Origin: Sphingosinicella microcystinivorans
GTDB taxonomy: Bacteria; Pseudomonadota; Alphaproteobacteria; Sphingomonadales; Sphingomonadaceae
Assembly: GCF_027941835.1 (NCBI RefSeq)
Contig: NZ_CP116005.1
Coordinates: forward strand, 310,001 to 374,000
Length of the DNA stretch: 64,000 nucleotides
Direction of reading: 5' to 3'
Below the pieces are notes generated by a model that saw only the letters and a program-made list of their open reading frames with translations, did no database searches and was not told the origin of the DNA. The position numbers and the translations under genes were made by a program. Below are positions 9,019 to 20,470 of the stretch, one piece after another. Positions within the stretch are counted from its first letter, which is position 1. Each line of letters starts with the position of its first letter.

Positions 9019-11124
9019 TCAGAAGCGGTCTGCGTCCATTACCTTGGCCCAGGCCGCAACGAAGTCGGTAACGAACTTCTGCCTGGAATCATCGGACGCA
9101 TAGACTTCCGCGACCGCGCGCAGTTCGGAGTTCGACCCGAAGATCAGGTCGACCGGGCTCGCCGTCCACTTCGCCGCGCCGGTAGCGCGGTCCTTGCCTT
9201 CATAGAGGCCGGGCGTACTCGCCGACTTCGACCAAACCGTGTCCATCGACAACAAGTTGACGAAGAAGTCATTGGAGAGTGTGCCCGGACGACTGGTAAA
9301 GACGCCCGCAGTGGAGTTGCCGGCATTGGCGCCAAGCGCGCGCATGCCGCCCACCAGCACGGTCATTTCCGGCACAGTCAGGTTCAGCATATCGGCCTTG
9401 TCGACAAGTGCCTCAGCCGGACCGAAGTCGGAATTGGCCGCGTACCAGTTGCGGAAGCCATCGGCCTTGGGCTGAAGATGATTGACGGACGCCACATCGG
9501 TCTGCGCCTGCGTGGCATCGACCCGTCCTGGCGTGAACGGCACGGTCACGTCCTGTCCGGCAGCCTTGGCAGCCTGCTCGACCGCAACATTGCCGCCCAG
9601 CACGATGAGATCGGCAAGGCTGACCCTCTTTCCGCCAGTGGCGCGCTTATTGAAGTTTGTGCGGATCGCTTCCAGCCGACCAAGAACCTTCGTGAGTTCC
9701 GCCGGGGTGTTCACGGCCCAGTTCTTCTGCGGCTCAAGCCGCAGCCGCGCACCATTAGCGCCGCCGCGCATGTCGGTCGCACGGAAGGTCGAGGCAGAGG
9801 CCCAAGCCGTGCGCACAAGTTCGGCGGTGGTCAGCCCCGAACCCGCGATTTCGGCCTTGAGCGCCGTGACGTCGGCATTGTCGATTGTCGCATAGTCAGC
9901 CTTGGGCAGCGGATCCTGCCAGGTGAAGGTCGCGCTGGGCACGTCCTTGCCAAGGTAGCGGGCCTGCGGACCCATGTCGCGATGGGTCAGCTTGAACCAG
10001 GCCCGGGCGAAAGCATCGGCGAACTCCTGCGGGTTCTTGTGCCAACGCTGGGTGATCCTGCGGAACCCCGGATCCTCGCGCATCGCGATGTCGGTGGTGA
10101 ACATGATCGGCGCGTGGCGCACGTCAGGCCGATGCGCATCGGGTACCAGGCTCGCGGCGGCCGGATCCTTGGGAACCCACTGGACGGCACCTGCCGGGCT
10201 GCGGGATTTCACCCACTCGAAGCCGTAGAGATTGTCGAGGTACTGGGTGGTGAAGGCGATGGGATTGGCCGACCAGGCGCCCTCGAGCCCGCTGGAGACA
10301 GTGTCCTCGGCATTGCCCTTGCCACACTTGTTGGTCCAGCCAAGGCCTTGTTGCTCGATTGGGGCGACGCCCGGATCACCGGCGACACATTCCTCGGGCT
10401 TGTGCGCACCGTGCGCCTTGCCGAACGTGTGCCCGCCAGCAATCAGGGCTGCAGTTTCCTCGTCATCCATCGCCATGGCGCCGAAGGCACGGCGGATGTC
10501 CGCGGCCGCTGCCAACGGGTCGGGATTGCCATTCGGGCCTTCCGGATTGACGTAGATGAGGCCCATCTGGGTCGCGGCAAGTGGTCCCCTGAGGTTGCCC
10601 TTCTCGTCGCGGCGCTGGTCCATCAGCATCTTGGTTTCCGGCCCCCAGAACACGAGGTCGGGCTGCCAGGCATCGACACGGCCGCCGGCGAAGCCGAGGG
10701 TCTTGAAGCCCATGTCCTCCATGGCGACGTTGCCGGTCAGCACCATCAGGTCACCCCAGGACAACTTGCGACCGTACCTCTGCTTGATCGGCCAGACGAG
10801 GCGTCGGGCCTTGTCGAGGCTCACGTTGTCGGGCCACGAATTGAGCGGTTCGAAGCGCTGCTCACCGCCATCCGAACCTCCGCGGCCGTCACCGGTGCGG
10901 TAGGTGCCGGCGCTGTGCCAGGCCATGCGGATGAAGAACGGGCCATAGTGGCCATAATCGGCCGGCCACCAACTCTGCGAGGTGGTCAGCACCTTGCGGA
11001 TGTCGGCCTTGACCGCGTCGAGGTCGAGGGAGGCGAATTCGCGCGCGTAGTCGTAGTCGGCGCCATAGGGATTGGACTGCGCCTCGTTCTGGCGCAGCGC
11101 CGAAAGGTCGAGGTCTGGTGACAC
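9019..11124 (-). CDS. katG: catalase-peroxidase KatG, 5'-truncated
   Basis: KatG removes H2O2 and organic peroxides. The frame holds both peroxidase domains: the distal Arg-Trp-His segment [13 protein letters not shown], Tyr in LIYVNPEG and Met in FGAMAMDD (partners of the Met-Tyr-Trp crosslink), proximal His in [10 protein letters not shown], and the C-terminal domain to KVMDADRF. Family proteins start about 30 residues earlier with a segment ending WWPNQLDLS. Here the homologous sequence begins at DLDLSALRQ and the preceding codons, including the GTG at 11124, belong to an IS21 remnant. Native promoter, ribosome site and first residues are lost. No good Shine-Dalgarno precedes the GTG, so it is probably silent. 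Confidence 0.88.
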
Positions 11125-11613
11125 GCCTCGAAGAGGAGACCCGGATCGGCAAAGGCGGGACCCTGGCGGCGCAGCTGTCGCGGCTCGACCTGATCGTGCT
11201 CGACGAGCTCGGTTATCTGCCGTTCGCCCGCTCGGGAGGGCAGTTGCTGTTCCACCTCATCAGCAAGCTTTATGAGCGGACCAGCGTCATCATCACCACG
11301 AACCTCGCCTTCGGCGAATGGCCGACCGTGTTCGGCGATCCCAAGATGACCACGGCGCTGCTCGACCGCGTCACCCACCACTGCGATATCGTCGAGACGG
11401 GCAACGACAGCTGGCGCTTCAAAAACCGCAGCTGACAGCCACCTTCGGCGCCTTCAAAAATCTATCTTGCGCTGCGCGCGCCTCCGGTCGGGCTACGCCC
11501 GCCCTCCGCCGCACGCAGCGCAAGGCCATCTTCAACAAACCAGCATCATATTATCCGAAAAGGGGGTCCCTCTTCGACGCCGATCGGGGGTCCCTTTTGA
11601 ACGCCGTTTGACA
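11114..11613 (+). mobile_element. 3' remnant of an IS21-family element
   Basis: This 500-bp stretch matches 30106-30604 of the complete element at 28083-30604. It covers the 3' part of istB, the hairpin region and the right end terminating GCCGTTTGACA. The only difference I noticed is one extra G in a G-run near 11590. The left end, istA and the first half of istB are missing, and the break abuts katG codons, so it arose by insertion followed by deletion. It is in the same orientation as the full copy. Confidence 0.9.
11118..11435 (+). pseudogene. istB: istB 3' fragment
   Basis: About 105 codons equal to the C-terminal part of the IstB at 29696-30427, from [10 protein letters not shown] to the terminal WRFKNRS. 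The Walker A half is missing, so it cannot act as the IstB ATPase. It is part of the IS remnant that truncates katG. Confidence 0.88.
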
Positions 11614-12383: not shown

Positions 12384-12821
12384 TTATTTCTCGATCTCGT
12401 CCATGATCTGCGCACGAACCGTCATCGAATCGGTGATGAGCGGCTGCTTGCGCAGCGCTTGTACCTCTGCGGCAGTGTACGGCTTGAACGTACGCGGCAT
12501 GTTGGCGGGATCATAGGTCTGTACTACCCAGTTCAGCAGATCGGCCACCCTTTGGTCAGACAGCGGCGCAAACGCAACCCCGGGGACACGGCCGAGGAAG
12601 GCTCGGCCGTGTTGCAAGTGCAGGAAACGAGACACATTGCTCGCGAGACCCGGCACACCACTGCCCGAGCCCGAGCCCTCGGATCGGTGGCAACCCTGGC
12701 AGTTCATGATCCAGTCTTGCCGGGTCTGCCCCTCATTTTTGACGCCAGGCAGCGGCGCAGCTGGACTTGCAGAAGCCACCGCCGCCAGCAAAAAGGTCGC
12801 AATGACACGCCACCGGATCAT
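12384..12821 (-). CDS. periplasmic c-type cytochrome (second in amine cluster)
   Basis: A 145-residue protein with a signal peptide (about 1-21) and one haem motif CQGCH (Cys41, Cys44, His45). PANMPRTFKPYT may supply the Met ligand. It begins 4 bp after the previous cytochrome stop, with GAGGGCGA before the ATG at 12821, so it is last in the aau operon. It could be the electron acceptor of the dehydrogenase or pass electrons to the oxidase. Family resemblance beyond monohaem cytochrome c is not clear. Confidence 0.82.
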   Translation of the reverse strand: MIRWRVIATFLLAAVASASPAAPLPGVKNEGQTRQDWIMNCQGCHRSEGSGSGSGVPGLASNVSRFLHLQHGRAFLGRVPGVAFAPLSDQRVADLLNWVVQTYDPANMPRTFKPYTAAEVQALRKQPLITDSMTVRAQIMDEIEK

Positions 12822-12825
12822 CGCT

Positions 12826-13284
12826 CTATCGCCCTCCAAGCGACTTCGGGCGCAGCGCAATCACATCGCGCGCCCGCAGCTTTGCATGTTTCTCCCGAAT
12901 TGCCCCGACCTCGGCGACGCTGAACTTCGTCCAGGTTGGCGGAAGGCTTTTCTTGTTAAAATTGTCGAGGATGAAATTCAGCACGCCGGCGAGTTGCTCA
13001 TCCGACAAGCCCGATCCCTGCGGCGGCATCACGCCGCTGTAGGTCGTACCTTTGACATTGATCGGACCAGTCAGGCCGGCATGAACTACCATTACCAGAT
13101 AGTCTCGCCCGGCCGGCGTTGCCGCCAGCGGACCCAGCCGGTCAGTCAATCCCGGATAGATGCCAGGGATTCCCGCGCCGGTCGGCAGGTGGCAGCTCGC
13201 GCATCTTTTGTACAGGCCGGCGTTGTCGGCGCTTGCATCAGACGCGACGAAAAAAGCCGCCAGCAGAAGCAGGAGTCGGATCAT
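12826..13284 (-). CDS. periplasmic monohaem cytochrome c, AADH-associated
   Basis: 152 residues: signal peptide (1-19, ending SDASA), haem motif CASCH (Cys28, Cys31, His32), and GVMPPQGSGLSDEQ providing the Met ligand. It follows aauA directly. In the known aromatic amine dehydrogenase operon aauBEDA of Alcaligenes faecalis, the next gene likewise encodes a small periplasmic monohaem cytochrome c. It is the likely electron carrier from the quinoprotein. An unrelated C-terminal tail (about 100-152) is rich in Lys/Arg. Confidence 0.87.
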   Translation of the reverse strand: MIRLLLLLAAFFVASDASADNAGLYKRCASCHLPTGAGIPGIYPGLTDRLGPLAATPAGRDYLVMVVHAGLTGPINVKGTTYSGVMPPQGSGLSDEQLAGVLNFILDNFNKKSLPPTWTKFSVAEVGAIREKHAKLRARDVIALRPKSLGGR

Positions 13285-13851
13285 TCAGCCCTCCTGCGCC
13301 AAAGCCAAGCCGACGACGGTCGCGGTCGAACATGTGTACATGCTGCTCTTGGTGCCGATGCACCAGAGATACTCGCTACTCGACTGCGGACGGATCGAGG
13401 GCCGGTCCTTGGGATTGTTCGGGGCGCAGGGGCAGCGGGTGCAGTTTGGCTTCCCACAGCAATCATTGTAGGAAATGATGTAATGCTTGTTGTCTACCGG
13501 ATTGAGACAGGTACCAATCCAGGACATCGGTGACATTTCTGTCCCCGGCGGACAGGCTGCCGGACCGCCGCCGCAGCAACTGCACAAGGTTCCGCCAACG
13601 CCGCAGTAGCGCCAGTAATCGCAGCTCGTCACGTCGCCCTCTTCGCCTGGATTGGTAGTGAAATCAGGAGCGACGCCGGGATAGCTTTCCTTGGGTTCTC
13701 GCGCCTGTGCGGAGGCGCGCGCGATCGGGAGCAAGGGAAGCGCGGCACCCCCCACCAGTGTGAGGCCGAGCCGTCCGAGAAAGCTGCGGCGCGAGCTTGA
13801 CCGCGCGACACCGCGTAACGTCCGTTCGGAGAATTTGTCGAATATGTTCAT
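13285..13851 (-). CDS. aauA: TTQ amine dehydrogenase small (beta) subunit, AauA/MauA-like
   Basis: The 188-residue precursor has a twin-arginine signal (RRSFLGRLGLTLVGG, residues 21-35) and the Cys-rich small-subunit fold with 14 Cys. The two Trp that form tryptophan tryptophylquinone are Trp111 (MSWIGTC) and Trp163 (YLWCIG). The catalytic Asp is Asp130 (YNDCCGK). Compared with MADH/AADH, the conserved Asp after CDYWRHC (Asp32 of MADH) is Gly86 here, codon GGC, and the active-site Thr near the C-terminus is Ser175. Subunit folding needs AauE/AauD, encoded just upstream. Whether TTQ matures is in doubt. The start at 13851 lies after the aauD stop. Confidence 0.9.
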   Translation of the reverse strand: MNIFDKFSERTLRGVARSSSRRSFLGRLGLTLVGGAALPLLPIARASAQAREPKESYPGVAPDFTTNPGEEGDVTSCDYWRYCGVGGTLCSCCGGGPAACPPGTEMSPMSWIGTCLNPVDNKHYIISYNDCCGKPNCTRCPCAPNNPKDRPSIRPQSSSEYLWCIGTKSSMYTCSTATVVGLALAQEG

Positions 13852-13861
13852 TACTTTGCCC

Positions 13862-14476
13862 TCAGTGCGCAGCGCCGGAGTGTTTTTCGAGAAAGTCCTG
13901 GATCGTCGGTGTGCCGAGCGTCCTCGCCTCGAACAGGCTCTCCAGATGCTCGCGTGAGTTGACGAGGCCAAGCGCGCTGACCTTTCCGCCCTCGTCGATC
14001 AGCACTGCATAGGGCAGTCGGCTGACACCATATGAACGGCCCAGCGTTTCCGACCGAACATAGGGGAAGTCCTGGAGTCCGTTTTTCTTTACGAACGCCC
14101 GGTGCTCGGCATCATCTCCGCCATCGCTGGCCAGGATGACATTGAGCCACGCCCGCTCATGCTGGCGGATCGACTTCAATACGGGGAGGAGCGTCTTGCA
14201 GATCGGGCAGGTCGGCGCGAGGAAGAAGATGAGCTGGCTGGTCCGCACCTTGTCCTCCCCTTTGCCGATCGACAAACGCTGCCCGTCGAGCGTCTCCACC
14301 ACGATAGCCGGTGCCGTGGATCCGCCTGACAGCTTCTGGTTCACCGTCAGTGCCCCCACCGGTGCTATACGCTCGTAAAGTGCGCCGACCTGTCGCACCA
14401 GCGCCAGGCAGACCACTGCCAGACAAGCGACAAGGAGCCAGAGAAGAATTTGGGAGACGGCCAGACCCTCAATCAT
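13862..14476 (-). CDS. aauD: AauD/MauD-like thioredoxin-fold maturation protein
   Basis: 204 residues: an N-terminal membrane anchor (about 8-28), then a thioredoxin-like domain with a CPIC active site (LAPTCPICKTLLP) and cis-Pro region SRLPYAVLIDEGG. MauD-type proteins are needed for disulfide formation and stability of the Cys-rich small subunit in the periplasm. The ATG follows the aauE stop directly and the stop lies 10 bp before aauA, as expected for one operon. Confidence 0.9.
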   Translation of the reverse strand: MIEGLAVSQILLWLLVACLAVVCLALVRQVGALYERIAPVGALTVNQKLSGGSTAPAIVVETLDGQRLSIGKGEDKVRTSQLIFFLAPTCPICKTLLPVLKSIRQHERAWLNVILASDGGDDAEHRAFVKKNGLQDFPYVRSETLGRSYGVSRLPYAVLIDEGGKVSALGLVNSREHLESLFEARTLGTPTIQDFLEKHSGAAH

Positions 14477-14477
14477 C

Positions 14478-15008
14478 CTATGCGTTCTTTTCCATAAGGG
14501 CCCGGTTCGATAACAATGCCTCAGCGGCCAGATAAAGGAAGCCGAGAACGATGACAGCGGCGGCAGTCTGTACCAGATCGAACCAGATCAGCGGGCGGCC
14601 GGTCATAGGCACCAAGGTCAGCAGTGCGAGACAGATGAGAATTGCATTCCGCGCAGGATGTAACCAGCTAAGACGAAATCCGCTCCGTCCCAGCGAGCAG
14701 CCGCAGTCGATGTCGATCAAGCCACGCGACAGGTTAATACTCATCGCAACAGCATAAGTGCTGAAAATTAAAGCGGCCGCCCATCCCGCCCACGGTTGCG
14801 CGAAGGGCAGCAACAATGCCACGCCGATCAGCAACTCGCCAAGCGCCAAAAACACGCTCGCAGCAGCGACCAGGCGATTGGGCAGGAGATGATAGGCCGA
14901 AACCGCCTGGATAAAGGCAGTGCGATCGACAAGCTTATGCCGTGCCGACGCCAGCAACAGGCCACTCAGAAACAGCGAGACCACAATGTTGAATAACGGA
15001 TCAATCAT
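14478..15008 (-). CDS. aauE: AauE/MauE-like integral membrane maturation protein
   Basis: A 176-residue membrane protein with about five hydrophobic segments and the family's Cys pair in LIDIDCGCSLG. MauE acts with MauD in export and folding of the dehydrogenase small subunit. The ATG at 15008 has GTGAGG upstream; a GTG at 15017 could add three residues. It is tightly packed between aauB and aauD. The family overlaps MauE/DoxX-like membrane proteins, but the context is decisive. Confidence 0.88.
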   Translation of the reverse strand: MIDPLFNIVVSLFLSGLLLASARHKLVDRTAFIQAVSAYHLLPNRLVAAASVFLALGELLIGVALLLPFAQPWAGWAAALIFSTYAVAMSINLSRGLIDIDCGCSLGRSGFRLSWLHPARNAILICLALLTLVPMTGRPLIWFDLVQTAAAVIVLGFLYLAAEALLSNRALMEKNA

Positions 15009-15018
15009 GTGATGCACC

Positions 15019-16170
15019 TCACTTCACCGCGTAGAGCGAGAAGGGGGTTATGTCGCGCCATCCACCGATTCGGCGGATAAACTTGCCGCTGTCTGCGGCA
15101 TAAACATCAAGCTCCTGATCTGCGTTCACTACCGCCAAGAGTGCCTCCTGGCCTCTCGTCGCCTCAATCACGCGCCCTTCCTTGCGAAGCGGGATACGCA
15201 TCAGCCTTGTCTGCGAAGACACGTCGTAAACCCAGACTTCGCCGCCGCCGGCGCCATGTTCACCGTCGCGCGCACCCTTTCGCATCAGCACGTAGAGCCG
15301 CCCGGCGCGATCCGCGCTGAGCACTTGCGCCCCTGATGGACGCCAGGACTCCTTCGCATCAGCCGCATCCAGCAGCGACCATGTCTTAAGGATCGTCCCG
15401 GCGCCTCCGGCCAGCCCCAACGGCTGGACGTGTCCGCGAAAGCTAACAAAATAACGCACATCGTTGACGAGGGCGCTGTCCATGAACAGCGGATCCTTGT
15501 CGATGTCGTTGAACACTTTGCTGACGTTCTCACTCGCCAGCTTGCCATCGGAATCGAGGGCGATAGCCGCCATCGAACCATTCCCGCACAATGTGATAAA
15601 GCTGCGCGGCCCCATCGGGTAGATCATCGTGCAGCCCGGGATATTAACCTCGCCGACCACGGCCCGTTTTATGAGATCCACCACGGTGACCGATGCCGCA
15701 GGGGTGAAATTATAGACAAGACCAAATTGCTCGTCGCCGCTAAGCGTGAACATGGCCTTGCGGGGCATCATCAACGCACGCTTTTCGGCGGGCAGAACGA
15801 TCTCGGCGATCGGATTGAGCGTGGCCTTGTCATAAACGACGATGAGGTCAGTGCGCTCTCCATAGGTCCCGCGCGAATAGACAGTCTCATTTGCATAAAG
15901 TTCGCTACGACTCTTCGCTTCGGCGAAATTGCCAAGTAGCGACGACTGAATCGATCCCTTAAGATGTCGATTGGCGGAAGCCGCATCCACGATGAGCGTC
16001 TGCCCAATCATACCGTTATGAGCATTGCTTTCGTGGACGAACAACCAGGTATCCGGATAGCTGCTAGGAAGCGAGGCAACGTTCGGCACCGGATCGGCGG
16101 GAACTTCCGCATTAAGCGCCACCGGCAGCAGCATGACCACCAATGCTATGGACTTCTTTACAAGATGCAT
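15019..16170 (-). CDS. aauB: TTQ amine dehydrogenase large (alpha) subunit, AauB/MauB-like
   Basis: A 383-residue precursor with a signal peptide (about 1-22) and the seven-bladed beta-propeller large-subunit pattern (SNAHNGMIGQTLIVDA, YGERTDLIVVYDKATLNP, LCGNGSMAAIALD, GGEVWVYDVSSQTRLMRIPL). It pairs with AauA as an alpha2beta2 periplasmic enzyme oxidising primary amines to aldehydes plus ammonia. The gene order B-E-D-A plus a cytochrome matches aau (aromatic amine) rather than the longer mau operons; substrate preference remains inference. The ATG at 16170 has GGAG/CAGGGG upstream. Confidence 0.88.
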   Translation of the reverse strand: MHLVKKSIALVVMLLPVALNAEVPADPVPNVASLPSSYPDTWLFVHESNAHNGMIGQTLIVDAASANRHLKGSIQSSLLGNFAEAKSRSELYANETVYSRGTYGERTDLIVVYDKATLNPIAEIVLPAEKRALMMPRKAMFTLSGDEQFGLVYNFTPAASVTVVDLIKRAVVGEVNIPGCTMIYPMGPRSFITLCGNGSMAAIALDSDGKLASENVSKVFNDIDKDPLFMDSALVNDVRYFVSFRGHVQPLGLAGGAGTILKTWSLLDAADAKESWRPSGAQVLSADRAGRLYVLMRKGARDGEHGAGGGEVWVYDVSSQTRLMRIPLRKEGRVIEATRGQEALLAVVNADQELDVYAADSGKFIRRIGGWRDITPFSLYAVK

Positions 16171-16407: not shown

Positions 16408-18717
16408 CTAGAAATGCACCCGCGCTTCTAAACCGAACGTGCGGGGTCGAACAGTGGAAGCCGTGCTGAGGCCCTGATCAAGATTATAATCGATGAAGGG
16501 ACGCGAATCGAAAACATTATTGACAAAGAGGCGATAGTCTACGCGTTCGGTCTCAAGCAGGATTTGCGCATTCGCAAGATCGTAACTCTCGCGGAATTCG
16601 GCGGCATTTGGAATGAGGCCCGCGACTCCGCCAGCATAGACAACCGGCAGGTCCCGATTGAAGGACCGTCTAGCCTTGTCTTGATACTGCCAGTCAGCAC
16701 GGAACGTCAGACGCGTCGTGGCACCAAGATCGACACCATAAGCCGCAAAGGCGCTCAGCATCCATTGCGGAACGGACAGGATCTCGTCTCCCTTCAGCGC
16801 GGGTGTCCCGGGAACCGCTCCAGTGATCTTGGCATTCATATAAGTTGCGGTACCGCCGATGGATAGACCTTCGGTGGGCGCAAAATTGGCCTCAATCTCG
16901 GCGCCCTTAATCCGTGCCGAGCCGACGTTATCGGTAAAGCTGAAGCCGCAACTCGACATCGCGATCTGCTGCTGGATTTTCTTCCAGTCCGTGTAAAAGG
17001 CCGCCGCATTGAAAGTCAGCCTGCGGTCAAGAAACTGGTTCTTGCTTCCCACTTCATAAGTCCACAGATTGTCTGACTTAAAGCTGTCGGGCGTGTCGGT
17101 CCGGCCGAGCCGGTCGAGATCGCTGCGGCACAGGTCGGCATCGATCTGGAAGCGGTTGGGGCCGCCGACACGGAAGCCCTTGCTCGCCGACGCAAAGAGC
17201 AGATTGTCCCGTGTCGCCTGATAGGACGCAGCGAATTTCGGATTGAGGCCGTTCTCGCTGTTCTCACGGCCTTTGAGCTCACTCTCACCGCCGTTGAGCG
17301 GCCCGGATCCAAACAGGTCGATCGTCTGCTTGATTCCGAACATGCGCAGGCCGACCGTCAATTCCAGCTTCGGAGTCAGCTTGTAACTCACCTCTCCGAA
17401 AGCTGCATATTGCCGTTCGACATCGTTGATATCGCCGAAATAGCCGATCTCTGTACCAAGAATGGGCGTGCCGCCATAGGTCTGGACCGTCTGATCGAAA
17501 TGAGCCTTCTGCCGTGAATAATAGAGACCCGCTATCCAGCGCCACTTGTCTTCTGGAGCACCTGTTGAGGCGATGCGCAGTTCCTGCGTCAACGTTTTGG
17601 TCCTGATATGTGCGAAGTTGAAGGAGTCATAATCGTAGAGGACGGGCAACAGGTTGCCGAGGAAGAAACTGTAGTCGCGATCGATGCCCATGCTGCGGTC
17701 GAAATAGCCCGTCAGCGAGGTAAATTCGGCACCCTCAAACTGTTTGCGCACCGACAGCCTGTAAATACCACTTTTGTCGGTCGTGGGGCCTTCGATCCGG
17801 TAGGATGACTGGAGACCGGGAAGATTGGTGAAGAACAGAGTCGGATTGTCGAGCTTGTAATCCTGATAGAAAGCAGAGGGGAGGATCGACCAGCTGCTGT
17901 CCGGTTCCCAAAGCGCCGACGCTCGCAGTACGAAAGTGTTAGACTCGTTGAAACCCTTCTTCGCGAGCGTGCTCTGGGATGGATGGCGGAGCGGGTCAAA
18001 AGATTCCGTCGGGCCGTTAGTGCTGAACCGGGGATTCAGAGCTTCGCCATTGGCGATATTGTCGATGAACCCACCGTCACGGCGATAGGCGGCGCCCAAG
18101 CGCACGGCCAGGACATCAGTAATGAGCGGAATGTTAACGATTACCTCGCCATTGTAGGATGGTTCGCCATACCTCGTCGTGGCAATACCGGCGGCCGCTT
18201 CGCCCTCGAAATCCAACAGACTCGGTCTGCGGCTGACATATTTGATCGCGCCACCCATCGAGCTGCCACCATACAAAGTGCCCTGTGGCCCCTTCAGAAC
18301 TTCCACGCGCTCGATGTCGAAAAACAGAAGGTCAGCAGTACCCGTGAAGACATTACCGCCTGTAACCAGCGAAATGTCGTCAAGATAGAGGCCGACCGTC
18401 GGCGCCGTCGCTACGGTGCTAACACCGCGAATATTATAAATACTCTGACCACGGTCCGCGCCGGAGAAGGCGACGCCAGGCGTGCTGAGCAAAATATCCT
18501 TGAAATCCCTGGCACCCATAGCATCCAGCTGCTCGCCACTGAGCGCAGTGACGGACACGGGCACATTCTGCAAACGCGCCTCGCGCTTCTGCGCGGTCAC
18601 AACGATGTCCTCAGCGCCGCCCTCCTCTTGAGCGAGTGCTGCGCCAGCCATAAAAACTAGAGCCAGACTTGTGGTCGATGCAAGAAGACGAGAGGAAAAA
18701 TTCAAATCTTTAATCAT
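16408..18717 (-). CDS. TonB-dependent receptor upstream of the amine dehydrogenase cluster
   Basis: A 769-residue receptor typical of sphingomonads: signal peptide ending GAALAQ, TonB-box region EDIVVTAQKREARLQNVPVS, plug with YNIRGVSTVATAP and RVEVLKGPQGTLYGGSSMGG, and a long barrel ending in FGLEARVHF. The ATG at 18717 has AGGAG about 10 bp upstream. The same strand and adjacency suggest a link to uptake of an aromatic or amine compound used by the aau enzymes, but ligand identity is unknown. A dimethylformamidase-like gene tail lies immediately upstream. Confidence 0.85.
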   Translation of the reverse strand: MIKDLNFSSRLLASTTSLALVFMAGAALAQEEGGAEDIVVTAQKREARLQNVPVSVTALSGEQLDAMGARDFKDILLSTPGVAFSGADRGQSIYNIRGVSTVATAPTVGLYLDDISLVTGGNVFTGTADLLFFDIERVEVLKGPQGTLYGGSSMGGAIKYVSRRPSLLDFEGEAAAGIATTRYGEPSYNGEVIVNIPLITDVLAVRLGAAYRRDGGFIDNIANGEALNPRFSTNGPTESFDPLRHPSQSTLAKKGFNESNTFVLRASALWEPDSSWSILPSAFYQDYKLDNPTLFFTNLPGLQSSYRIEGPTTDKSGIYRLSVRKQFEGAEFTSLTGYFDRSMGIDRDYSFFLGNLLPVLYDYDSFNFAHIRTKTLTQELRIASTGAPEDKWRWIAGLYYSRQKAHFDQTVQTYGGTPILGTEIGYFGDINDVERQYAAFGEVSYKLTPKLELTVGLRMFGIKQTIDLFGSGPLNGGESELKGRENSENGLNPKFAASYQATRDNLLFASASKGFRVGGPNRFQIDADLCRSDLDRLGRTDTPDSFKSDNLWTYEVGSKNQFLDRRLTFNAAAFYTDWKKIQQQIAMSSCGFSFTDNVGSARIKGAEIEANFAPTEGLSIGGTATYMNAKITGAVPGTPALKGDEILSVPQWMLSAFAAYGVDLGATTRLTFRADWQYQDKARRSFNRDLPVVYAGGVAGLIPNAAEFRESYDLANAQILLETERVDYRLFVNNVFDSRPFIDYNLDQGLSTASTVRPRTFGLEARVHF

Positions 18718-18778
18718 GATATGCTCCTGTTCTGAAAGCCAACTTTGGCTGGCTTTCCCCACCTCTTTGTTTTGCACG

Positions 18779-19110: not shown

Positions 19111-20091
19111 TTAGGCGGCGAGCTTGCGGTGCAGCAAGCGCCGATGTTCGATGGTCTGTCGTTTGATCCTTTCGCGCTGTTTGATGATGGCAGGTGCCCT
19201 GCCGAAGTAGGCGTCGGCTGGCGTCACGTTGCCGAGGCTTTCATGGTATCGGCGGTGATTATAGTGGTCGATGAAGGCCTCGATCTGGGCCTCCAGATCG
19301 CCGGGCAGGAAGTAATTTTCCAACAGGATGCGGTTCTTGAGGGTCTGGTGCCAGCGTTCGATCTTGCCCTGGGTCTGAGGATGCATCGGGGCACCGCGGA
19401 CATGGCTCATGCCGTTGGCGCCGATCCATTCGGCCAGCTCTTCAGCGATATAACTGGGACCATTATCGCTGAGCAGCTTCGGTTTTTGCACGACCCTGGC
19501 CGAAGAACAACCCGAGGCTTCGAGCGCCAGCTCCAGCGTGTCGGTGACGTCCTCGGCACGCATGGTGGTGCACAGCTTCCAAGCGATGACGTAACGGGAG
19601 AAGTCGTCGAGCACGGTCGACAGATACACCCAGCCCCACCCGATGATCTTGAAGTAGGTGAAGTCGGTCTGCCACATCTCGTTCGGCCGTGTCGTCTTCG
19701 TGTGGAACGCATCGGCCGCCTTGATCACGATGAAGGCCGGGCTGGTGATCAGGTCATGGGCCTTCAACAGACGGTAGACCGTGGCTTCCGACACGAAGTA
19801 GCGCTTCTCGTCGGTGAAGCGCACCGCGAGCTCGCGGGGTGACAGATCGGTTGTATCCAACGCCATGTCGATGATTTGCTGCTGGATATCATCGCCGATG
19901 CGGTTCCACACTCGGCTTGGAGCCGATGGCCGATCCTCCAGTGCCTCCGGGCCGCCCTCGAGGTAACGGTCGTACCAGCGGTAGAAGGTTCTGCGCGGGA
20001 TACCGAGCTGGTCCAGCGTGCGTTTAGCCGGCAGGTGCGATTGCTCGACGATCCTGAGGATCTCCAGCTTCTCGGATGCGGGATACCTCAT
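19111..20091 (-). CDS. IS3-family transposase OrfB (DDE integrase)
   Basis: 326 residues: an N-terminal helix-turn-helix (LDQLGIPRRTFYRWYDRY) and an rve integrase core with D in MWQTDFTYFKI, D in KLLSDNGPSY and E in QTQGKIERWHQTLKN, the DDE triad. It catalyses IS transposition with OrfA. Its frame is +1 relative to OrfA and the ATG at 20091 lies 22 bp beyond the OrfA stop, so separate initiation is likely. The catalytic core appears intact. Confidence 0.9.
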   Translation of the reverse strand: MRYPASEKLEILRIVEQSHLPAKRTLDQLGIPRRTFYRWYDRYLEGGPEALEDRPSAPSRVWNRIGDDIQQQIIDMALDTTDLSPRELAVRFTDEKRYFVSEATVYRLLKAHDLITSPAFIVIKAADAFHTKTTRPNEMWQTDFTYFKIIGWGWVYLSTVLDDFSRYVIAWKLCTTMRAEDVTDTLELALEASGCSSARVVQKPKLLSDNGPSYIAEELAEWIGANGMSHVRGAPMHPQTQGKIERWHQTLKNRILLENYFLPGDLEAQIEAFIDHYNHRRYHESLGNVTPADAYFGRAPAIIKQRERIKRQTIEHRRLLHRKLAA

Positions 20092-20113
20092 TCGCCGCCT
20101 TCCCCATCCGCGA

Positions 20114-20470
20114 TCATGCTTTTTTGAGCAGACGGTTCTCCAGCGTCAGATCGGCGACGCATTCCTTCAGCGCACGGGCTTCGCGGCGCAGGTCATGCAC
20201 CTCGCCGGTGGTCGCGGCACGGGCGGTGTCGCCCGCCAAGCGCCGCTTGCCCGCTTCCATGAACTCCTTCGACCAGGTATAGTACAGGCTCTGCGCTATG
20301 CCTTCCTTGCGGCACAGCTCGGCGATGCTGTCCTCGCCGCGCAGCCCTTCCAGTACGATCCGGATCTTGTCCTCTGCTGAGAAGTGCCGGCGTGTCGCGC
20401 GCCGGATATCCTTCACCACCCGTTCCGCAGGGGGCTTGGCCGATTTTTTCAAGGAGGATTTGGGCTTCAT
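20114..20470 (-). CDS. IS3-family transposase OrfA (HTH protein)
   Basis: 118 residues: basic N-terminus, a helix-turn-helix of the HTH_Tnp_1 type (SIAELCRKEGIAQSLYYTWS) and a C-terminal leucine-zipper-like helix (LRREARALKECVADLTLENR). It binds the IS ends. The last codons contain a run of six A before the stop, reminiscent of IS3 slippery sites, but the OrfB frame is +1 rather than -1. Confidence 0.87.
   Translation of the reverse strand: MKPKSSLKKSAKPPAERVVKDIRRATRRHFSAEDKIRIVLEGLRGEDSIAELCRKEGIAQSLYYTWSKEFMEAGKRRLAGDTARAATTGEVHDLRREARALKECVADLTLENRLLKKA

Follow-up and report, generated by a model that had tools for sequence, protein, structure and literature searches.

A recurrent Gly86 variant of the tryptophan tryptophylquinone amine dehydrogenase light chain, and a candidate maturation cytochrome, in a MauG-free aau cluster of Sphingosinicella microcystinivorans

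The stretch analyzed here (the window) comprises 64,000 nucleotides of the Sphingosinicella microcystinivorans genome (assembly GCF_027941835.1, contig NZ_CP116005.1, positions 310,001 to 374,000 of the forward strand). It carries a gene cluster for an amine dehydrogenase of the type that uses tryptophan tryptophylquinone (TTQ), one of the few cofactors built from a protein's own side chains. The genes are arranged in the order aauB-mauE-mauD-aauA, followed by those of two c-type cytochromes, here called cyt1 and cyt2, and all six frames are open (Table 1). In the light chain, AauA, glycine occupies residue 86, the place of an active-site aspartate, and comparison of light-chain sequences indicates that Gly86 is a genuine variation of the active site that recurs within a known type of enzyme. 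An earlier interpretation made from the letters of the DNA alone (the sequence-only reading) recognized the aauB-mauE-mauD-aauA order within positions 13285-16170, but that interval ends short of the cluster members cyt1 and cyt2. It also described a cluster without mauF and mauG. This was confirmed: no mauF, mauG or amicyanin gene was found beside the window cluster, where the two cytochrome genes stand instead. The window thus has the aauB-E-D-A order without mauF and mauG that marks the aau type, together with a feature that comes from the present analysis and not from print, the location of cyt2 downstream of aauA. Against the small-subunit equivalog of methylamine dehydrogenase (MADH), TIGR02659, AauA scores 158.3 bits, below the cut-off of 196.85.

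Table 1 Features of the aau cluster and its surroundings (positions are those of the window)
Feature	Position	Strand	Basis
aauA, TTQ light subunit, Gly86/Ser159/Leu162 variant	13285..13851	-	188 aa; PF02975 142.6 bits (cut-off 25); PDB alignment
Gly86 codon GGC, at the place of MADH Asp32 and aromatic amine dehydrogenase Asp84	13594..13596	-	
mauD-like, thioredoxin-fold accessory protein	13862..14476	-	NCBIfam MauD 174.3 bits, below cut-off 188.6
mauE-like membrane accessory protein	14478..15017	-	PF07291 81.5 bits
aauB, heavy subunit	15019..16170	-	PF06433 143.2 bits; aromatic amine dehydrogenase heavy chain best E 2.8e-41
cyt1, monohaem cytochrome c with Met ligand, Thermus c-552 type	12826..13284	-	PDB 2fwl E 6.4e-22, alignment covers Met
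cyt2, monohaem c-552-type cytochrome c, Met-ligand loop deleted; candidate MauG stand-in	12384..12821	-	
TonB-dependent receptor, upstream of cluster	16408..18777	-	PF00593 117.9 bits
Transposase genes, right edge of low-GC stretch (presumably IS3 type)	19111..20470	-	
360-base remnant, exact match to an insertion-sequence ATPase gene in L004 (which we take to be of IS21 type); left edge of low-GC stretch	11114..11473	+	

Based on phmmer, AauA aligns with PDB chains of both MADH (3c75_L, E 1.5e-43) and aromatic amine dehydrogenase (AADH; 2agl_D, E 1e-36). The residues that define a TTQ light chain, Trp111, Trp163 and Asp130, are present. In these alignments Gly86 falls opposite the Asp of the CSIDG/CAVDG segment, which confirms the claim of the sequence-only reading that the second active-site aspartate (MADH 32, AADH 84) is replaced by glycine (GGC). 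Among the 44 light-chain positions at which one residue is found in at least 85% of the 155 other rows of the alignment, the window sequence departs only at 86 and 159 (42 kept), and all 21 positions that are invariant across those rows are retained. There is a one-residue insertion at 144. Residue 159 is Ser where Asn is usual, and Leu162 stands directly before the second TTQ Trp. We take residues 162 and 159 to correspond to MADH Ile107, which has been linked to substrate specificity, and to AADH Asn156, an active-site residue.

Candidates for a compensating residue were considered. Replacement of Asp86 by a neighboring acid, named in the sequence-only reading as an outcome that would overturn it, was rejected on the sequence of the window: the loop has the sequence GVGG, and Asp-bearing relatives share the acids nearby. 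Of the 8 Gly sequences 7 have Asp121, the window instead having Asn121; Asp121 is also present in one Asp86 sequence (L048). A light-chain model built from eight sequences would place residue 121 in a hairpin turn, but its confidence is very low (predicted local distance difference test, pLDDT, 39.5) and it supports no claim. An acid may still be supplied through the fold, as these were comparisons of sequence. When 8 heavy chains of Gly clusters were compared with 99 of Asp clusters, no Gly-specific column was detected at the thresholds used; columns 26, 114 and 305, which are mostly conserved, vary more in the Gly set.

Light chains were gathered from 39 of 397 genomes of the family, where the 20 matches without a locus were fetched separately, from 12 of 398 of the phylum and from 3 of 295 of one order. 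A genome collection gave 102 coding stretches, of which 80 were added. Of 146 distinct mature light chains, 134 have Asp at residue 86, 8 have Gly, 2 have Ser and 1 has His, and a truncated gene has Ala. Both TTQ Trp and Asp130 are present in 145 of the 146, the exception being the truncated sequence. As 12 of the 146 (window included) are without the second Asp, we do not count it as family-defining. The sequence-only reading was right that this position is ordinarily Asp, but the motif it reported as CDYWRHC is CDYWRYC in window AauA. Its observation of Ser175 at the place of the active-site Thr is also correct, but Ser is the majority residue (102 of 146), and we rejected it as a warning sign. 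The broad alignment it had called for shows that Gly86 recurs, in two clades. Its proviso that Gly might be common in active enzymes held as to recurrence but not as to frequency, since only 8 of 146 have it and these are known from sequence only.

The glycine is accompanied by a second change. Residue 162 is Leu in all 8 Gly sequences and in none of the 134 Asp sequences; the latter have Asn (95), Ile (21), Asp (10) or another residue (8) there. It is Met in the His86 sequence, and Asn and Ile in the two Ser86 sequences. Asn159 is missing from 5 of the 11 non-Asp sequences and from 1 of the 134 with Asp (Fisher p 5e-6, ignoring relatedness). The association of the changes at 86, 159 and 162 suggests a remodelled pocket. 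The light chains with neither Asp nor Gly at residue 86 are L159 (genome G127) with His, and L157 (G030) and L163 (G672) with Ser; in G030 the Ser86 form is the sole light chain found. The truncated light chain, L128, comes from a 1.2 Mb genome (G650) and has lost its second half. It resembles true decay, in contrast to the Gly genes, and was excluded from the trees, the Asn159 counts and the comparison of conserved positions.

The Gly sequences fall into two groups. One comprises the window and three gammaproteobacterial sequences from metagenome-assembled genomes (MAGs; L037, L040, L042), the other five gammaproteobacterial sequences (L075, L076, L077, L079, L081). In the concatenated tree (67 rows, 787 columns) these clades stand apart with Shimodaira–Hasegawa-like approximate likelihood-ratio (SH-aLRT) support of 99 and 100, which forces at least two changes, and a tree with a single Gly clade is rejected on the concatenated data (approximately unbiased test, p-AU 0.0005). 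Columns 86, 121 and 162, not 159, were masked in the trees, and rows were thinned at >90% (110-row set) or >70% likeness (67-row set) with every non-Asp row retained. The ratio of non-synonymous to synonymous substitution rates (dN/dS) is 0.037-0.097 in six close pairs of Gly aauA genes; two further, more distant Gly pairs are synonymously saturated. Three Gly aauB pairs gave 0.107, 0.13 and 0.435, based on stop-to-stop frames that may contain non-coding sequence. Of the 8 other Gly genomes, 7 have the Gly gene as their sole PF02975 match and the eighth has two matches, but these are draft genomes whose completeness is not given, so that absence of a further copy is weak evidence.

We then consider how an aau cluster might mature its cofactor. 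Among 149 aauA genes that are each followed by 1.2 kb or more of sequence, near-copies included, 142 have cyt2 within 6 kb downstream on the same strand and 64 have cyt1; first copies of tandem pairs were credited with the shared cyt2. With the threshold set at 99 bits, all 39 aauA genomes in the family sample of 397 have cyt2 and none of the 358 others does, the copy number being equal in 38 of the 39. This search scored only the best first-look candidates per genome, and weak matches of 43-55 bits (G024, G338, G378, G396) were excluded, there being one 55-bit match among the 358. Fourteen clusters were fetched from named plasmid records (14 of 30 matched). Each of the five mau clusters carries a dihaem frame of >280 residues and neither cyt1 nor cyt2; the nine aau clusters all carry cyt2 and, in the fetched flanks, lack a dihaem frame of that length. 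Missing mauF and mauG are normal for aau-type clusters.

Several individual occurrences of cyt2 are of note. On Novosphingobium aromaticivorans plasmid pNL2 a gene annotated as a hypothetical protein (SARO_RS19985, L197:5028-5513) matches the cyt2 profile at 132 bits. Genome G296 has a strong extra cyt2 (C9:29789-30133, 128.6 bits), although only one light chain was found there. A tandem arrangement, aauB-aauA-aauB-mauE-mauD-aauA, occurs in gammaproteobacterial L045, L046, L047, L051, L056, L071, L083 and L093; these clusters apparently share one accessory set and one cyt2, and mauED was not found in L083. A 544-aa fusion protein at L037:6483-8117, with counterparts in L040 and L042, has cyt2 as its N-terminal domain and a C-terminal portion resembling phosphotriesterase-related proteins (Pfam/NCBIfam scan of the L037 protein only). 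In L091, an Aquabacterium MAG, two MauG/CCP-like genes (CCP, cytochrome c peroxidase) follow aauA and no cyt2 is present, possibly a natural swap.

Both cytochromes are related to Thermus cytochrome c-552. cyt1 aligns with it over almost its full length, including the Met. The cyt2 profile matches the Thermus thermophilus protein (1c52) with E 3.4e-24 in two pieces and skips c-552 residues 52-72, the stretch where cyt1 aligns its Met and which is reduced to three residues in cyt2. At the ligand column, Met is present in 75 of 76 cyt1 hits, whereas in 162 of 162 cyt2 hits there is no Met within five columns, the stretch being missing (neither set was de-duplicated). Apart from the His of the haem motif, 36 diverse cyt2 sequences contain no invariant or nearly invariant His, Met, Lys or Tyr. 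A model of window cyt2, whose start we placed at an ATG internal to the open reading frame, reached pLDDT 96.2, and its best structural alignment is again 1c52 (Z 12.6, rmsd 2.6, 110 of 117 residues; Foldseek and VIA-align were run on the cyt2 model only). Because middling Z scores are common among helical folds, we gave the sequence match more weight. By sequence and fold cyt2 is of the c-552 type, and it lacks His-Met haem ligation. Since the Met loop is deleted and no other ligand residue is conserved, an open sixth haem site would be expected. Window cyt2 has a single CxxCH and is not a two-haem protein of the CCP/MauG family. In Pfam the 36 members matched general cytochrome c families only and not PF03150, and NCBIfam returned no match for the two cyt2 proteins tried.

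Compared with known systems, the cluster is closest in plan to that of Alcaligenes faecalis AauBA (aromatic/aralkylamine dehydrogenase), with which it shares the aauB-E-D-A order, both TTQ Trp, the catalytic Asp and the aligned Cys. The Alcaligenes operon presumably lacks mauF/G/L/M/N as well. Relative to AADH 2agl_D, Asp84 is replaced by Gly86, the Asn before the second Trp by Leu162 and the Asn three residues earlier by Ser159. With Paracoccus MauBA (methylamine dehydrogenase) the window has in common the light- and heavy-chain families, mauE and mauD, and differs in the sub-threshold small-subunit score and in having two c-type cytochrome genes where mauF, mauG and amicyanin are absent. Like MauG, cyt2 is a haem protein of c type whose gene adjoins those of the enzyme, and it is expected to have an open haem site; the two are mutually exclusive in 14 of the 14 named clusters fetched. 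Unlike MauG, it has one haem and not two and no CCP/MauG family match, and its role in TTQ formation is a proposal.

The window genome (4.53 Mb, one contig) contains three light-chain genes, each in an aau cluster. The other two, L004 and L005, belong to the same kind of cluster and have the Asp (CAIDG), and the window copy has the lowest family-profile score of the three. The G+C fraction at third codon positions (GC3) is 0.66-0.75 for the six window cluster genes, compared with 0.90-0.95 for aauA and aauB of the two paralogues; it is 0.65 for the adjoining TonB-dependent receptor gene and 0.80 for nearby katG. The cluster lies in a low-GC stretch flanked by insertion-sequence genes or remnants. 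Receptor genes of the TonB-dependent type similarly adjoin many aau clusters. Five further genomes of the genus, two of them only 78 and 83% complete, yielded no Gly copy. Judged on composition and surroundings, the window cluster is most likely a third aau cluster acquired by horizontal transfer.

Taken together, we consider it probable that the window holds a horizontally acquired third aau cluster, that its product is a functional TTQ amine dehydrogenase of the periplasm from a naturally occurring lineage with a variant pocket, and that this enzyme is matured by the usual MauG-free route, for which cyt2 is the candidate maturase. AauA would be exported through its long leader, with MauE and MauD handling folding and disulfides. 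Completion of TTQ from its hydroxylated precursor is a six-electron oxidation of the Trp pair, and cyt2 would most likely be the oxidant in aau clusters, the role that MauG has in mau clusters. cyt2 is the best genomic candidate because it is near-constant in aau clusters and lacks the Met. TTQ would still form in the Gly86 enzyme, the retained Asp130 taking on the acid-base work, while loss of polar groups may reshape the pocket toward a different amine and cyt1 may carry electrons away from the enzyme. A wider version is put forward tentatively, as possible rather than probable. Here aau clusters in general would mature TTQ without MauG through cyt2, its Met loop excised so that the haem can meet peroxide or oxygen; this would be a second, unrelated route to TTQ, and some lineages, that of the window included, would manage without the second Asp in a pocket remodelled about Gly86 and Leu162.

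The sequence-only reading offered two outcomes, a decaying enzyme or a different cofactor formation. If the window copy were a decaying foreign paralogue, redundant beside two Asp-bearing aau clusters and with Gly86 and Ser159 as early inactivating changes, one would expect what is in part observed: of three light-chain genes it is the lowest-scoring and is compositionally foreign, insertion-sequence genes are close by, and two conserved positions are altered. We nevertheless regard this as improbable, and decay is most likely not what the sequences record, as all six genes are open, the light chain retains 42 of its 44 well-conserved positions, and the same change occurs in intact homologues that are under purifying selection in close pairs and are mostly the sole copy in their genomes. 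A cofactor formation peculiar to the window copy was not borne out either: its accessory set is that of ordinary Asp-bearing aau clusters. It is doubtful, though somewhat less so than decay, that TTQ formation truly differs throughout the Gly lineage, with the first hydroxylation or crosslink made by another route or halted at an intermediate and the Trp pair differently modified. The Asp is reportedly important for TTQ formation in MADH mutants (Jones 2005), residues 86, 159 and 162 vary in association, and the cyt2 of L037, L040 and L042 is fused into a larger protein; set against this are the ordinary accessory genes of the window (mauE, mauD, cyt1 and cyt2). PMC7876137 describes a cofactor-adjacent Asp conserved in all tryptophylquinone enzymes and reports that changing this Asp in GoxA left formation of cysteine tryptophylquinone possible. 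We take that residue to match Asp130 and not Asp86, in which case it would bear only loosely on the question.

A serious possibility, if short of probable, is that cyt2 is a mere electron acceptor of aau enzymes and that TTQ is matured by a MauG-like enzyme elsewhere or by another factor, the maturase function proposed for cyt2 being putative. The search for MauG-like dihaem proteins proposed by the sequence-only reading did find two in the window genome, but neither is general among aauA genomes. One is a PF03150 (MauG/CCP family) protein far from the cluster, at C1:705123, the only one in this genome; PF03150 is found in 18 of 39 aauA genomes and 57 of 358 others, and the 21 aauA genomes without a match weaken the case for a MauG-family protein elsewhere as general maturase. 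The other (L005:3915-5270), beside the L005 cluster, belongs to the MauG superfamily but has no Pfam match and scores 46.8 bits against TTQ_mauG (cut-off 443.85). Among 70 genomes searched, its close orthologues occur in 5 of 39 aauA genomes (its own, G277, G174, G220 and G340) and in 0 of 31 others. cyt2 also lacks the ligand typical of electron carriers, and the ligand-bearing cyt1 follows only 64 of 149 aauA genes.

Several points weigh against a working, independently recurring Gly86 enzyme matured through cyt2. cyt2 may be only an electron acceptor or carrier. No cyt2 was found in the examined stretch after L053, L055, L086, L091, L094, L095 and truncated L128: L053 is a tandem first copy on a contig that breaks off within the second aauA, L055 clusters with such first copies (~6 kb examined), the contigs of L086 and L094 end within 2.2 and 1.8 kb, and L095 has cyt1 only in ~6 kb. 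Based on the light chain alone, the one-clade tree lies 15 log units above the free tree with 110 rows (p-AU 0.72), and with 67 rows its p-AU is 0.049. As the light-chain tree is ambiguous, Gly86 and Leu162 could represent one event plus gene exchange. A relatedness-aware independent-pairs test of the residue association had too few events for significance. Among the sequences searched window AauA has no close relative (best identity 61-62%), and the purifying selection observed is that on other Gly genes. The importance reported for the Asp in MADH belongs here too.

To our knowledge, TTQ formation is understood only for the MauG-dependent methylamine enzyme, and we know of no account of how the aromatic enzyme obtains TTQ since its aau operon was described (in work by Chistoserdov). 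Titles and abstract openings in the searched literature, outside which most MADH and AADH biochemistry lies, yielded none on Gly86-type enzymes or on a non-MauG cytochrome in TTQ formation. Natural enzymes without the second Asp would be a ready test of that residue's role. The association of cyt2 with aau clusters, the most valuable by-product of the analysis, provides a specific candidate for MauG-free TTQ formation that could be knocked out.

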